From Basidiobolus heterosporus B8920 (lineage: Eukaryota > Basidiobolomycota > Basidiobolomycetes > Basidiobolales > Basidiobolaceae), in NCBI GenBank assembly GCA_000697455.1, contig JNET01034877.1, positions 1 through 30,989 of the forward strand: DNA of 30,989 nt. The letters are read 5' to 3'. Each line of letters opens with the position of its first letter. Positions within the stretch are counted from its first letter, which is position 1. A program made the position numbers and the translations under genes. The notes beneath the pieces are model-generated. The model did not search any database, was not told the DNA's origin, and saw only the letters and a list, made by a program, of their open reading frames with translations. This document shows, in pieces, positions 6,098 to 28,760 of this stretch.

Positions 6098-6985
6098 TTA
6101 GTATCCACTGTCTGCTTGTGAGGGTGCCTCCTTTCCAGGTGCGAGGACATTCACCAGTTTACTGAACACACCACTAGCGCCAATTCGGAAATTCTTGGCA
6201 TTTACCCAGCGTTGATTCTCTTTGCCTTCAACTAAGGCCTCGTCAGTACCGGTCATCATCTTCTCAGCGAGCCAGATATAGGAAGCTGCCTGGTCGACAG
6301 TTTTGACTCCACCAGAGATTTTGATGCTGATTTCCTTCCCTTCTTTATCTTTAGTGTTCTTGATAGCACGCAACATGTCATAAGCAACCTCAAGTGAGGC
6401 TCCTCCAGTAGGATGCTTACCAGTAGAGGTTTTAAGGAAGTCTGCGCCAGCGTGAATAGCATCGATGCAGGCATCATAAACCAGTTCAGTTGGTAAGGCT
6501 GAAGTTTCCAGGATAACCTTTAGAAGAACTGGGCGACGTTCAGGGGAAATAGTTTTGTTATAGTCAAGGATAGTCTTCTTGACTTCAGAGATCATGTTGC
6601 ACGCAGCCGCTTTGTCACCTTGAATGTACTTTTCAAAGGGCCATACGAGATCTACTTCGTCTACTTGGTCAAGACAAGCCTTCGTCTCAGCGACCACCTG
6701 TTCAATTGAGTTGGCCCCGTGTGGGAAGTTTACTACGGTAGCTACGCCAGCATTGTATTGGTTTTCTTTCAATATTCTCCGTACAAGTCCAGCAAACTGT
6801 GAGTAAATACAGATAGCAGCGACGGGTTCAGGTGAGGCCAAGGCACGCTTACAGAAGTCAGTGATAACCTCGTCTGTGTCGTTGTCATTGAGTGAGGTTA
6901 AATCTAGAGTAGCGAGTCCCAAACGAGCATAAAGAGGGGAGCTCTTTTGAGATAAGGCAGTTTGGAGTAGAGTAGAGCGAGACAT
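6098..6985 (-). CDS. deoC: Deoxyribose-phosphate aldolase (DERA), bacterial DeoC-like
   Basis: The enzyme cleaves 2-deoxyribose 5-phosphate to glyceraldehyde 3-phosphate and acetaldehyde in deoxynucleoside catabolism, in the cytosol. Motifs (numbered from the upstream ATG 7024) are LDLTSLNDNDTDE at 40-52, NFPHG at 99-103, DEVDLVWPF at 122-130 with proton-relay Asp125, FLKTSTGK with Schiff-base Lys198, and IKISGGVK with Lys235. The protein ends in Tyr, like the E. coli enzyme, whose C-terminal Tyr helps catalysis. The NFPHG and DEVD-V-P segments and the tail are closer to the gammaproteobacterial form than to the human enzyme. ATG 6985 (MSRST, 295 aa) is preferred: a TATA-like AATAAATA at 7032-7039 sits only about 15 bases before ATG 7024, so transcription probably begins inside the longer frame (308 aa). 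Intronless. Function is confident; origin by transfer is only a possibility. Confidence 0.93.
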   Translation of the reverse strand: MSRSTLLQTALSQKSSPLYARLGLATLDLTSLNDNDTDEVITDFCKRALASPEPVAAICIYSQFAGLVRRILKENQYNAGVATVVNFPHGANSIEQVVAETKACLDQVDEVDLVWPFEKYIQGDKAAACNMISEVKKTILDYNKTISPERRPVLLKVILETSALPTELVYDACIDAIHAGADFLKTSTGKHPTGGASLEVAYDMLRAIKNTKDKEGKEISIKISGGVKTVDQAASYIWLAEKMMTGTDEALVEGKENQRWVNAKNFRIGASGVFSKLVNVLAPGKEAPSQADSGY

Positions 6986-7030
6986 GATGGAATTGAAAAT
7001 TGTAAATGTGGGTACATTCTTCACACGCCT

Positions 7031-10268: not shown

Positions 10269-11748
10269 ATGTTGACAAGACTTAGGATTCGTCTTCTTCC
10301 CCGGCTTACGAAATCTCCATCAATAGTCAGAAGGTTTCATGATAAAGCCTTGATATTTAGTCACTCGGATAAAAGACTCCCGGAAAACAACAAGGTGGAA
10401 GCCTTTTTAACACCCATTTTAGACCTTCTCAATTTAGAGACCATTTATATGAATGCAAGCACCTTCGATCCCAAACGGTATGCCTGTACCAACCCTCCTC
10501 CTGCCTTAGCCCTTCTACTCTTTCCCAGGATTACTGACTTGAAGTTTCATAAAGAAGTGGGATTTCCCCTAGTCCAAGGACTACGTACACTACCCGAGCC
10601 TTTGGAGCCCGGAGTCGCCGGGAAAATGTTTAACCGAACTTTTATAATAGTATGGAATGAATCAGCAAGTGAGAAAGTACTCTTTCGATCACAATACATC
10701 CAAATGGGTGCGAACATGGTTACACATAGTACTGACAGCGTTCAGCAAGCATTATTGACTGCCTTTGATCCCATAGTAAAACCTGATTTTCGTACTGGTG
10801 TAGCACGATCACTGCATAAAACCTACGAATGCCCATTATGTCCCGCTAATTTCCTATCGTTTACCTCTACAAGACAACCTTCCTTGAGAACTCATCTTCC
10901 TCTCTATCATTGCTCCGCATCAAACGTACCCATCAAGGAATGTCCTAGATGTCTCGAAATCCCTACTAAATGCTCAAGACCCACCAAACTGAATCCTAGA
11001 TGGTTTCCTATCCATCTACAGGAAGAGCATCTACCGAACGAGATATGGCCTGTGCAAAGTTTGGTCGCCGAAGAGCTTGGAATACGGAAGCGAAAACCTC
11101 GACCAACGTCCGGGGACTGTAGGTTTGCTGTGGTAGTTGTTCGTCGTCCGAGTGATGGAAAATTCCTGATGGTTAGTACAGTTGATTAGAGGTATAGATG
11201 CGATTTCAATGATAGAGACTCTAGTCCATACAGATTGAAGAGCGTGGCAACGCAGGATATTGGTTCCCAGGTGGGGAGATTGATCCGGAGGAAACACCCA
11301 TGGAGGGGGCTATACGAGAGACAAAAGAGGAGTCTGGAATCGATATAGAGATACAAGGGTTTCTACATTATGAACGTGAATCGGGGGATAAAGATGGTGA
11401 AGATTATTTGAAATACGAGAATCGGTTGTGGGTATTCCTGGCCAAGGTACGCCATTTATCTTAGGGTTGGTGTTGATTCCCCTGGAATTAATAGGTTACT
11501 TGTAGCCAAAGTATGAGGGTCAGATACCAAAATCATTGCCAGACTACGAAACAAATGGGGCCTGTTGGGTTCATCTTGATGAATTGGATTGTCCATCGAT
11601 CAGACTGCGTAGCGATCATCCAAAAATATGGTTTAATTATGTAGCCAAGGGTGGCCGTGTAAGACCACTCACAGAATGGGATATGGACATGGCGAAGGAA
11701 GGAACTCGGGAGGCATCGATGTATGCGGAAAGTACAGGTATCCTTTAA
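10269..11748 (+). CDS. Zinc finger-Nudix fusion protein, likely mitochondrial (3 or 4 exons)
   Basis: Exons: 10269-11171, 11234-11446 and 11506-11748, giving 452 aa. The start is MLTRLRIRLLPRLTK, arginine-rich without acids, which suggests a mitochondrial presequence. Residues about 30-170 form a domain I do not recognise. Then follow two C2H2-like modules with long loops: CPLC (188/191) with H209 and H214, and CPRC (225/228) with H249 and H254. A Nudix domain comes next, with the complete box from G315 to I337 (GX5EX7REXXEEXGI, here GGEIDPEE...RETKEESGI), the Mg-binding motif that hydrolyses nucleoside diphosphates linked to another moiety. The substrate cannot be predicted. The end is uncertain: the stop at 11746-11748 lies inside an exact U12-like donor, GTATCCTTT (11738-11746). 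Splicing to 11779 would extend the frame to 11957. Confidence 0.8.
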
Positions 11749-12415
11749 GCGTTGTCTGATCAACTTGGATCTCAACAGCCAGAAGAGTTGGTGTGATTCA
11801 GTGGCCAATGGAAATTACGGCTATCTCCGAGGATAACGATGATAGGTTGACTGAACATTTCAGAGTTAACCTCACACACACACACACACTTGCAGTTATC
11901 TACCTCACCTTACTCCCAGGCAAGCTCTATCACAATAAAGAGATATTAGCCAAGTGATTTGTTTCTATGATGGAGAGTCAATAATCATACGAACACTTGT
12001 GCCAAGCTAGTTACCAAAAAGATAAACTCCATTCTTGTGCTCTTGGCTGGTTGTTAGTAGGATAAGACACGTGGCGTGAACAGAAATTTTTTCTAGAAGA
12101 ATTCAAAGCTTTGTTTGAACTTCATTGATTCGACATGATTGGAATCAATGGAAAGTTCACCAAACCTAGGGTTAAATTGGTCGCCCTAAGCCACAATCAG
12201 ATGCGAAAAGGGAAGAAAATTGAGGGACTTGAATGAATTTATTTCTTTCAAGATAAGCGTAGAAAGATTATATTGGAACTAGGTCTATATAGTTTTACAT
12301 GGCATAATACATACAATCGGTGTAAGGTTCAATGGAAAGCGAAGATTCATAGGAGTGGAAGAAAATTACGGCTGGTGTTTGCTATTCTGTACAAAGACGT
12401 CTATTAGATATCCGT
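11749..12415. other. Spacer between Nudix and phosphatase genes
   Basis: It holds a (CA)8 microsatellite and possibly an alternative last exon of the Nudix gene (11779-11957). The rest is non-coding, presumably the 3' regions of the two convergent genes. Confidence 0.5.
11873..11889. repeat. CA dinucleotide microsatellite
   Basis: An uninterrupted (CA)8C run, just downstream of the Nudix coding region. Confidence 0.95.
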
Positions 12416-23885: not shown

Positions 23886-24041
23886 CTGCCACCTTGGAAC
23901 AGCTGCTAACCACAAGAATTTCATCTGAATTTCATTACATTATTAACACTTTTCAACATACATACTTTTTTAAAGTTTGAATCCCTCCGAATTCCTATTT
24001 TGTTGTCCTTGAAAAATCCCAAACCTTATTCTCCAAGTGGT

Positions 24042-26999
24042 ATGTCTAGTCCTGCTCCCGAAGCGCCCTTGCCTTACCATACTTATGACATACAAGATAT
24101 TGTCCAGAGGTTAGAAACCGATTTGGAAGATGGCCTTAGTTCCCAGCAAGTAGCTGACCGTCTACACAAATATGGTCCCAACCAGATGTCCGGAAATGGA
24201 GGTGTCAGCCCATGGAAGGTCCTTTTCAGACAAATCGCCAATGCTCTTACTCTTATTCTCGTTGCTGCCATGGCCATCGCTTTCTCTGCAAAAGATTGGG
24301 TCGAAGGAGCCGTTATTGGGGTTGTCATCGTTACAAACGCTACCATCGGTTTCTTCCAGGAATATCGAGCCGAAAAGACCATGGACTCTCTACGTAAAAT
24401 GGCATCTCCTACCTCACGTGTTATGCGCGATGGAAACCTGACTCACATTTCTACTAGCGAGCTCGTTCCTGGTGATGTTCTAGTTTTCGAAAACGGCGAT
24501 GTCATTGGAGCAGATGCTCGTCTTAGTGAGCAATTTAACCTAGAAGTTGACGAAGCGTTGCTTACCGGTGAATCTCTTCCTGTCCCAAAGACACTTGAAA
24601 CATTAACCGACCCTGATGAACCTATTGGTGACCGTATTAACTTGGTATATTCAAGCACTACTGTAACCAAAGGCCGTGGGCGCGGTATTGTTATAGCGAC
24701 TGGTATGCAAAGTGAGATTGGTAAAATCGCTAAAAGCCTTATTGAGAGCAGTGGTGATAGCAAAACCAAGCTCCAAAAAAGCATGGACAAGATGGCATAC
24801 ATCCTATTTTTCGTTGCCGTTATTCTAGCAGTAGTTGTTTTTGCCGTCAACAAATTCAGAATCGATACTGAAGTAGCGATCTATGCCATCTCACTGGGGA
24901 TTGCTGTGATTCCCGAAGGGTTGATCGCTGTTGTTACTCTCACAATGGCCGCTGGTGTTAGATCTATGGCCAAAAATAAGGCAATCATCAGACAACTTAA
25001 CGCGCTTGAAGCCTTAGGATCAGTTACCAATATTTGTTCCGATAAAACAGGGACCCTCACCCAGTCCAAGATGGTCATGACCAAAGCTTACATTCCAGGC
25101 GATGGCTACTACCACATTTCTGGTGCCGGTTTTAATCCTGAGGGCGAAGTAATCCGCCTTGGAGAGGTATCCACCAACGAATTGGCCATTTCCGGAAGTT
25201 CTGATTCATACTCACAGACTGTGACTTTCGAAAGTATGAGTGCTCCACTGAGAAGAGTGGTTGAGGTTTCATCCTTGTGCAACATGGCGATCCTCAAACA
25301 CGATAAAACTACCGGTGAATGGATAGGTGTCGGTGATCCGACCGAGACTGCTTTACAAGTTTTCGCAACAAAGGTTGGCCAAGGAAGACCTAAGCTCACC
25401 AGCGCTTCCGAAAAAGGGCATGCGGAGTTTTCTCTACACGCAGAATTTCCATTTGACTCCACTGTCAAAAGGATGAGCGTGGTTTACACAGAAGAGAAAT
25501 CCGGCAAACATATCGCTTATATGAAGGGTGCTACTGAGAGGGTCATTGGCTGTTGCTCACGTATAAAGATTGGTGACAGAGAAGAGACCATCGAAAAACC
25601 TGATCAACTAATGCAAATGATCGGCCATCAAGTCGAGCAGTTAGCTTCCAACGGACTTCGTGTATTGTCTTTGGCCTATCGTTATATTGAACCGCAACTA
25701 TCCGAAACCCACCCCGATTATTGGACCCGCGAACAGGTAGAACGGGATATGATTTTTGTTGGCTTGGTAGGTATTTATGATCCTCCACGCGCTGAATCGA
25801 AAGATAGTGTTGAACGATGTGCTCGCGCTGGTATCCGAGTCCATATGCTTACTGGTGATCATCCCGCAACTGCTGCAGCAATCGCTAGAGAGGTCTCGAT
25901 TATCCCTCCAAACTACAGAGAGAGCAAAGAAGGCCCAAAGCTAGTCATGACGGCAATAGAGTTTGACGCCCTGACTGACGAACAAGTGGATGCATTGGAG
26001 GAGCTTCCTCATGTAATTGCTCGTTGTAGTCCTGACACCAAGGTAAAGATGATTAAGGCTTTGCATAGAAGAAGAAAGATTGCTGCCATGACTGGTGATG
26101 GTGTAAACGATTCCCCTAGTCTTAAGATTGCAAATGTTGGTATTGCTATGGGAATGGCCGGCTCTGATGTCGCTAAGCAAGCGTCAGATATTGTATTGAC
26201 TGACGATAACTTCGCCACCATTGTTAGAGCTGTTGAAGAGGGTCGTCGTATCTTTGCCAACATTCAGAAATTCGTCCTTCATCTAATGTCAGGCAATGTC
26301 TCTGAGATCATTGCCTTAGTTATCGGTCTCTGTTTCTCTGACGCATCAGGAAATCCCGTTTATCCCATGTCGCCTGTTCAAATTCTCTTTTTGAACATGG
26401 TGACAAGCTCACCCCCAGCCATGGCCCTAGGATTGGAACCTAAAAACCCTCTGACCATGCGTATGCCTCCTCGTTCTCCTACCAGTGGAATCTTCACATT
26501 GGAAATCGTTGCTGATATCTTGGTCTATGGTACTTTGATGGGTGGTCTCTCTCTGATTAACTTTGTCCTCGTGGTATTTGGTTTTGGTGATGGAAACCTT
26601 GGCTTGGACTGCAACTCTAAATATAGCGATGCCTGCGATCAAGTATTCCGTGCTCGTGGAGCAGCCTTCTCCTGTCTTACTCTGCTGATTCTTTTGCATG
26701 CCTACAACTGTCGTAGTCTTCGTGAACCACAGTGGTTGCCTCCCGGTATCCGCAATTATTATTCCAATCGTCCCCTCTTCTGGTCCATTTTCCTCGGGTG
26801 TGGCCTATTGATCCCAGTCTTGTATATTCCTTATCTCAACACTGCTATCTTCAAGCACCAATATCTCACATGGGAGTGGGCTATCGTTGGTGTTTCGATT
26901 ATTATCTTTTTGATTGCCTCCGAGCTCTACAAATTCATCAAGAGGAAGGCTATGCGATCCAACGTTGTTCTTGTTGATAATGAGAAAGATGCTTTTTAA
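24042..26999 (+). CDS. ENA1: ENA-type P-type ATPase (Na+/K+ export pump)
   Basis: Intronless, 985 aa from ATG 24042 (MSSPAPEAPLPYHTYDIQDI). Type IID ATPases export Na+ or K+ across the plasma or endomembrane using ATP and are central to salt and high-pH tolerance in fungi. Seen in order: the N-terminal domain, TM1-2, LLTGESLPV (actuator TGES 175-178), IPEGL in TM4 (290-294), the phosphorylated Asp334 in ICSDKTGTLTQ, the nucleotide-binding domain with EFPFDSTVKRMSVVY and KGATERV, then IYDPPR, MLTGDHPATA, GDGVND (685-690) and SDIVLTDDNFA. Six further C-terminal helices follow, including FPMSPVQILF-like sequence and MALGLEPKNPLTMRMPPR. FVLVVFGFGDGNLGLDCN and the YSDAC loop resemble fungal ENA/Cta3 pumps rather than SERCA. 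Length is near the family norm of about 1,000. Cation specificity cannot be decided from sequence. Confidence 0.93.
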   Translation: MSSPAPEAPLPYHTYDIQDIVQRLETDLEDGLSSQQVADRLHKYGPNQMSGNGGVSPWKVLFRQIANALTLILVAAMAIAFSAKDWVEGAVIGVVIVTNATIGFFQEYRAEKTMDSLRKMASPTSRVMRDGNLTHISTSELVPGDVLVFENGDVIGADARLSEQFNLEVDEALLTGESLPVPKTLETLTDPDEPIGDRINLVYSSTTVTKGRGRGIVIATGMQSEIGKIAKSLIESSGDSKTKLQKSMDKMAYILFFVAVILAVVVFAVNKFRIDTEVAIYAISLGIAVIPEGLIAVVTLTMAAGVRSMAKNKAIIRQLNALEALGSVTNICSDKTGTLTQSKMVMTKAYIPGDGYYHISGAGFNPEGEVIRLGEVSTNELAISGSSDSYSQTVTFESMSAPLRRVVEVSSLCNMAILKHDKTTGEWIGVGDPTETALQVFATKVGQGRPKLTSASEKGHAEFSLHAEFPFDSTVKRMSVVYTEEKSGKHIAYMKGATERVIGCCSRIKIGDREETIEKPDQLMQMIGHQVEQLASNGLRVLSLAYRYIEPQLSETHPDYWTREQVERDMIFVGLVGIYDPPRAESKDSVERCARAGIRVHMLTGDHPATAAAIAREVSIIPPNYRESKEGPKLVMTAIEFDALTDEQVDALEELPHVIARCSPDTKVKMIKALHRRRKIAAMTGDGVNDSPSLKIANVGIAMGMAGSDVAKQASDIVLTDDNFATIVRAVEEGRRIFANIQKFVLHLMSGNVSEIIALVIGLCFSDASGNPVYPMSPVQILFLNMVTSSPPAMALGLEPKNPLTMRMPPRSPTSGIFTLEIVADILVYGTLMGGLSLINFVLVVFGFGDGNLGLDCNSKYSDACDQVFRARGAAFSCLTLLILLHAYNCRSLREPQWLPPGIRNYYSNRPLFWSIFLGCGLLIPVLYIPYLNTAIFKHQYLTWEWAIVGVSIIIFLIASELYKFIKRKAMRSNVVLVDNEKDAF

Positions 27000-27313: not shown

Positions 27314-28760
27314 ATGAAACTCATTGGTATGGATTCTTTCTAATCTGGAGAAGACGCTTGTTGCTAATTTAGCTTCCCTTTGGTCTATTCAAGATATTGG
27401 CCTTAACTTGACTGACCCTATGTTTCGAGGGGATTATCGAGGCAAAAAAGCTCATGAAGGTACTATTTCGTACAGTCGCAATCTATAATTAATTATGAAA
27501 GCTCTAATAGCTCTACTGTGACAAACAGATGATCTGGAATACGTTCTTCACAGAGCACTTAATGCTGGTGTAACACGTATGATTATTACTGGCGGGTCTT
27601 TGTCAGAGAGCAGAGAGGCTCTTGAGTTGGCCAGAAATAAAGGTCAGTTGGCCACTTGCGAGACTAAATAGTAAAGCTCATGAATTAAGCTTTACTTGTA
27701 CGTAGAATATTTATTTTCGACCGTTGGTTGTCATCCTACCCGGTGCTCTGAGTTTGAGGATTCTTCAATCGCAGCTTCACCTGACGCATATTACGAAGAG
27801 CTATTGAAGATAATCCGTAGTGAACAAAATAAAGTGGTGGCCATCGGCGAGTGTGGTTTAGGTAAGAGAATAGTAAGGCTTTTCTTAGTGATCTACAAGT
27901 TAAGTATCGGTCTATAGATTACGATAGACTTCAGTTCTGCGACAAGGATACACAAAACAAGTAAGTTACAATAGACTCTAAACTTCCAGAAAATCGGTAA
28001 GTAATTCTTAGTTGAACAGATATTTTGAGAAGCAATTTCAACTGGCCGAGGTTACTGGACTTCCGATGTTCTTACATAATCGAAACACCGATGGTGATTT
28101 TGTCAATATCCTTTTTATTTAAGATGGGAAAACTTGAAATTATGTTTTGCTTTCTATACATCCTTCACCCTAGCCTACAGATGATAAAGAAGAACCGTGA
28201 TCGGTTTACCCAGGGTGTAGTTCACTCGTTTACTGGAACTAGCGAAGAAGCCAAAGAGATAATAGATTTGGGTCTATTCATTGGAATCAACGGATGCTCT
28301 TTGAAAACTGAAGAAAATCTCAACGTTGTGGCATCGATACCCATTGAACACATGATGATAGAAACTGGTATGAGCATCACTTTCTCACCCCATAATTACC
28401 ATATTGGCATGAAAGTAATCAACGATATAACCTAAACAATAGACGCTCCTTGGTGCGATATCCGTCCAACGCATGCCAGTTACAAGTTCCTTAAAGACAA
28501 GCCAGAATTACTGTTTGAAAGTAAGAAGAAGGAACGCTTTGAATTAGGCCTGATGGTTAAGAGCCGAAACGAGCCTTGTACATTGAGGTAGATTTCTAAT
28601 GATACATGCTGCTTATTCTTCGAGAAATGCTAACCCATTAAATAGACAAGTTTTAGAGGTAATCGCAGGTGTACACTCTCGAGATGCTCAAGAGGTAGCC
28701 GAAATAGTCTATCAAAATACCTGCAACGTATTCTGGCCCAAGGCTTCAGATAATAAATAA
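27314..28760 (+). CDS. TatD-family metal-dependent DNase (TATDN1-like), 9 exons
   Basis: Exons: 27314-27326, 27394-27459, 27529-27642, 27706-27861, 27918-27960, 28020-28105, 28179-28367, 28443-28587 and 28646-28760, giving 308 aa (human TATDN1 is about 297). TatD enzymes are TIM-barrel metallonucleases that degrade DNA, with roles in 3'-5' trimming, repair and apoptotic DNA breakdown. The start [15 protein letters not shown] matches the eukaryotic TATDN1 N-terminus, which lacks the bacterial HXH. Metal-site motifs follow: AIGECGLDYDR (Glu), MFLHNRN (His), VVHSFTGT (His) and MIETDAPW (Asp). [11 protein letters not shown] and [15 protein letters not shown] are further landmarks. Exon 1 is only 13 nt. 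Six of the eight introns have clear GT-AG ends with strong donors, intron 3 has the weaker GTCAGT, and intron 6 is best explained as U12-type AT-AC (28106-28178). Confidence 0.93.
28106..28178 (+). other. Probable U12-type AT-AC intron in the TatD gene
   Basis: A 73-nt intron. The donor ATATCCTTT equals the U12 AT-AC consensus. TCCTTCAC (28161-28168) matches the branch-site core TCCTTRAY at all but one base. The branch A (28167) lies 11 nt before the AC end, within the usual U12 distance. Joining exons here gives [13 protein letters not shown], the same length as human TATDN1 in this region. The only GT-AG alternative has the poor donor GTCAAT and drops two residues. Confidence 0.7.

Follow-up and report, generated by a model that had tools for sequence, protein, structure and literature searches.

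A probable U12-type AT-AC intron in Basidiobolus TATDN1

The question raised by this locus is which spliceosome would remove the sixth intron of a gene for a TATDN1-type TatD DNase, whose ends can be read as AT and AC. The gene lies at 27314-28760, stop codon included, on the forward strand of the window (the whole stretch of DNA that was analysed, 30,989 nucleotides). It comprises 9 exons and 8 introns and encodes 308 amino acids. The exons, all on the forward strand, are exon 1 (27314-27326), exon 2 (27394-27459), exon 3 (27529-27642), exon 4 (27706-27861), exon 5 (27918-27960), exon 6 (28020-28105), exon 7 (28179-28367), exon 8 (28443-28587) and exon 9 (28646-28760, stop included). The initial annotation had called this a TatD gene, and rightly so: Pfam TatD_DNase (PF01026) spans residues 5-300 of the predicted protein (8.3e-61), which is the full-length domain, and human TATDN1 (PDB 2XIO) aligns with it end to end (3.3e-110). 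Also as annotated, the other introns have GT and AG ends in seven cases out of seven; they measure 56-75 nt each, and their donors vary, with GTACTA and GTCAGT among them.

We propose that the forward-strand stretch 28106-28178, in TATDN1 of a Basidiobolus species, forms a U12-type AT-AC intron, and we give this reading a probability of about 0.96. The intron is 73 nt long and in phase 1. Its motifs are observed directly, and they bear out what had been claimed for the donor and for the branch region. The 5' splice site ATATCCTTT (28106-28114) agrees in 9 of 9 bases with the U12 consensus /RTATCCTTT given by PMC2846911. The branch-site element TCCTTCAC (28161-28168) agrees with TCCTTRAC in 7 of 8 bases, the one mismatch being a C just before the likely branch A at 28167, and the 3' splice site AC (28177-28178), within the terminal CCTAC, follows 11 nt after that A. 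The span from the donor to the end of the branch element is 63 nt.

A loose scan of the window gave 10 further donor-like sites, all of which were dropped. Two of them, 11738 on the forward strand and 9000 on the reverse strand, are exact matches to RTATCCTTT with no branch-like element within the next 110 nt, and they are probably due to chance; the forward-strand stretch 11733-11750 reads TACAG followed by GTATCCTTT. A weak branch-like element accompanies each of the sites at 26248 (forward) and 20520 (reverse), and the six remaining sites have none. As for other genes in the window, a P-type cation ATPase of 1029 amino acids (23910-26999, forward strand) adjoins the intron-rich TatD gene in a single open frame, and a DeoC-type aldolase of 310 amino acids (6098-7030, reverse strand) likewise occupies a single open frame.

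The choice of splice sites can be judged from the reading frame and from the length of the protein. Splicing from AT to AC keeps the frame and leaves no gap at the junction against 2XIO (371.2 bits), as the initial annotation had stated. The most serious rival is an ordinary U2-type GT-AG intron of 79 nt at 28102-28180, removed by the major spliceosome, in which the U12-like motifs would be coincidental. This intron, GTCAAT...CTACAG, also stays in frame, and a weak GTCAAT donor is conceivable given the varied donors of the same gene; however, the protein would be two residues short, with a gap to 2XIO of that size and a score of 365.6 bits. We compared the spacing with 240 TatD homologues (the best 120 of 3713 and the best 120 of 1505), 239 of which cover the junction stretch and many of which are close relatives of one another. 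The AT-AC spacing was found in 228 of these 239 listed homologues, and the protein from Linderina (P0019) even has the identical letters DFVKMIK. Odd spacing was found in the other 11 (+1 in six, +2 in two, and -1, -3 and -5 in one each), and the two-residue deletion expected from GT-AG splicing in none of the 239. One listed model, P0119 from the oomycete Globisporangium ultimum, is three residues short at the junction. We rejected the intron at 28102-28180 because the length of its protein is wrong with respect to the homologues. In addition, it offers no explanation for three U12-like features, namely the exact donor, a branch element and the AC. Their combination occurred in 0 of 400 windows simulated with a first-order Markov model compared with one observed case, under a pattern drawn up once intron 6 was known. 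We therefore consider the GT-AG reading very improbable. Splicing from AT to AG (28106-28180) was rejected outright, as it breaks the frame and meets 12 stops.

Introns with AT-AC ends that are removed by the major spliceosome do exist, and the donor of such U2-type introns is ATAAG-like. That intron 6 is one of them is the most remote of the readings considered: a category of "Other AT-AC introns" is tabulated in PMC2846911, but the donor here is the U12 9-mer, the branch element is U12-like and the same assembly holds many candidate U12-type introns.

These further introns were sought by pattern in the 8.1-Mb assembly, where chance matches in coding regions contribute to the counts. TATCCTT followed by CCTTRAY after a gap of 25-55 gave 53 matches, five times the 10 of the reversed pattern. 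With ATATCCTTT and CCTTNAC, a pattern loosened to admit the branch letter of intron 6, there were 20 matches including intron 6 itself, against 2 reversed. Longer introns were covered by TATCCTTT with a gap of 55-85 nt; this added only 7 matches against 2 reversed, and most such introns therefore appear to have the short spacing. The base before the branch A is A in 31, G in 7 and T in 1 of 39 other strict-donor candidates, most of which came from a pattern permitting A or G alone at that position. In 29 of the 39 the base before CCTT is T, though the pattern had left it free, and the donor-to-branch-end span is 57-71 nt in 38 of them, the search range having ended near 70.

The ends of the candidates are also paired in a characteristic way, in that A-donors tend to go with AC and G-donors with AG. 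For 49 of the 50 candidates, intron 6 being set aside, we recorded whether AC or AG occurs 8-16 nt after the branch A. The A-donors had AC only in 15 cases, AG only in 3, both in 5 and neither in 2, and the corresponding counts for the G-donors were 4, 11, 7 and 2; the association of AC only or AG only with the donor type has a Fisher P of 0.0016, in a range of distances that was set after the candidate list was seen. Restricting the count to the 38 strict candidates, we obtained 12, 1, 4 and 1 for the A-donors and 3, 10, 6 and 1 for the G-donors (Fisher P 0.001).

For a Pfam scan, nine other candidates were picked as recognisable from 24 spliced flanks, with the 3' end chosen by frame, and in eight of the nine the junction falls within a domain match. 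The AT-AC junctions lie in CLP1_N, ATP_bind_1 (GPN3-like), zf-TFIIIC and ANAPC4_WD40, the last match being slightly below the Pfam cut-off, and the GT-AG junctions lie in Arf, Ras, Sedlin_N and Alg6_Alg8; in the ninth, a MyTH4 candidate, the domain match begins 3' of the junction. The CLP1 and GPN3 AT-AC junctions align without a gap to solved chains. Judged by these patterns and junctions, the assembly contains many U12-type introns of both the AT-AC and the GT-AG subtype. Two loci on separate contigs (L018 on C103 and L028 on C184) carry similar genes, each with a U12 GT-AG-type intron candidate directly before the start of the reading frame; the downstream exon resembles ribosomal protein L13.

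One of the sister introns bears on the host as well. The CCT-beta gene (L079 on C401) is interrupted by a U12 GT-AG intron that separates KVLV from ISKVQDDEVGDGTTS. Its product is identical to that of B. meristosporus CBS 931.73 in 476 of 482 aligned residues; the alignment leaves out 23 residues of the predicted frame that look like another intron still to be removed, as well as residues 1-45 of the public protein. The next matches are a second B. meristosporus copy (87%) and other named sequences listed at 85% or below. The TatD protein of the window is identical to a Basidiobolus ranarum protein (P0279) in 129 of 147 residues. By these two identities the host genus is Basidiobolus (Zoopagomycota), in line with the early-diverging fungus that the initial annotation had in mind. 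A Basidiobolus name is not visible among the best 120 of 3713 TatD homologues, in which names are shortened and some rows are nameless. In a TatD tree of 54 of the 120 listed homologues and the query, the query stands beside four sequences (96/88) and not within a fungal group. The tree does not show the placement in Basidiobolus and speaks neither for nor clearly against it; the genus rests on the CCT-beta and TatD identities.

The steps by which minor introns are spliced are established. For intron 6 they would mean recognition of the donor ATATCCTTT by U11 and of the branch element TCCTTCAC by U12, replacement of U11 by U6atac, attack on the donor by the presumed branch point A28167, and a cut after the AC at 28178 that would join GTC-A to AG-ATG. 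Such a scheme needs the working minor spliceosome that the initial annotation had implied; the many further candidate introns speak for it, while the genome search that the annotation recommended returned, from the 8.1 Mb of contigs, none of U11, U12, U4atac and U6atac above the Rfam cut-off, no SNRNP25 and no clear ZCRB1. U12 and U6atac snRNAs were absent at E <= 0.001, at which the control genomes were likewise silent. At E <= 10 there was no U11 match in the assembly and a single U4atac match of 18.5 bits (E 2.6) against a cut-off of 53. The U6 snRNA, which served as the positive control, was found with 78 bits. Core-motif patterns gave 15 U12-like matches against 32 reversed, which is noise, and, with 3 mismatches allowed, 2 U6atac-like matches against none reversed. 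An Rfam scan (E <= 5) of 12 loci, made up of nine of 12 U12-like loci, both U6atac-like loci and the U6 locus, recovered U6 and tRNAs and no minor snRNA.

The minor-specific proteins searched for were SNRNP25 and ZCRB1. There was no match to SNRNP25 (PF18036). With a ZCRB1-like query, 7 matches came up (best E 6.3e-7), of which four cover its RRM part and three its zinc-knuckle part; the two parts never occurred together, and the best zinc-knuckle match is a protein with many CCHC knuckles. In an assembly that may be incomplete, the failure to find these snRNAs and proteins does not show absence. Because so many sister introns stand in the same assembly, we take the machinery to be present, either outside these contigs or too diverged for the models.

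Public TatD models of other fungi show irregularities at the codon of intron 6. The B. ranarum model of 147 amino acids opens with MIRKNRHR, at the position that corresponds to the first complete codon downstream of the intron, and lacks the part that exons 1-6 encode. The gene predictor apparently dropped those exons at the AT-AC boundary, probably because it made no use of AT-AC ends. Read-through of intron 6 would give DFV-N-I-L-F, and [N/D]-I-L stands at exactly that codon in 3 of the 11 odd-length homologues, namely Geosiphon (P0060, FFNILSIQKNR), Phycomyces nitens (P0271, FYDILFFSH) and Funneliformis (P0286, FMDILQHRH), the last with less of a full read-through likeness. Among the 228 homologues of normal length it occurs in 3, Ptychodera (P0087), Rhopilema (P0113) and Lineus (P0282), whose names mark them as animals; their D-I-L fits the spacing and is plain sequence. 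The difference has a Fisher P of 0.0014, uncorrected for related sequences and noticed post hoc. The Rhizophagus protein is normal at this codon (FMDLIQKHR). These models fit a single old intron, and we see even odds that the TATDN1 AT-AC intron is one ancestral minor intron, kept at the same codon and phase in Basidiobolus, Glomeromycotina and Mucoromycotina but overlooked in gene prediction, which would leave public models either cut at the intron, as in B. ranarum, or read into it, as in Geosiphon, Phycomyces nitens and Funneliformis. If this is true, annotation-based surveys undercount minor introns in these fungi.

Intron 6 stands as a minor intron confirmed from raw sequence in Basidiobolus, and the likely practical cost of missing it is a conserved enzyme truncated in a public proteome. 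The homologue comparison suggests a cheap screen, in which models that break off or gain I-L at one conserved position point to missed minor introns; such a screen would bear on the number of minor introns in the ancestor of terrestrial fungi. The literature searched held no co-mention of TATDN1 with "U12-type" or "minor intron", and for Basidiobolus with "minor introns" it held PMC10639083 alone. What looks new is the B. ranarum model starting right after intron 6 and the I-L in the Geosiphon, Phycomyces and Funneliformis models.

Minor introns in Basidiobolus are already known, and TATDN1 intron 6 joins them. PMC10639083 reports 249 minor introns in Basidiobolus meristosporus (0.554% of introns), the highest density so far reported among fungal genera, compared with about 4 in Rhizopus, about 20 in Phycomyces and 205 in Rhizophagus. 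The B. meristosporus introns come from the same genus and share the donor and branch consensus of this assembly. TATDN1 is not named in those passages of PMC10639083 that describe them, and since the public B. ranarum protein breaks off there, intron 6 may be absent from annotation-based counts. The U12-type introns of Rhizopus, Phycomyces and Rhizophagus (PMC2846911, PMC10639083) are likewise from early-diverging fungi and have the same motifs, but belong to another phylum. Human TATDN1 (2XIO) is a homologous protein that is gap-free over the intron 6 junction, a likeness at the protein level.
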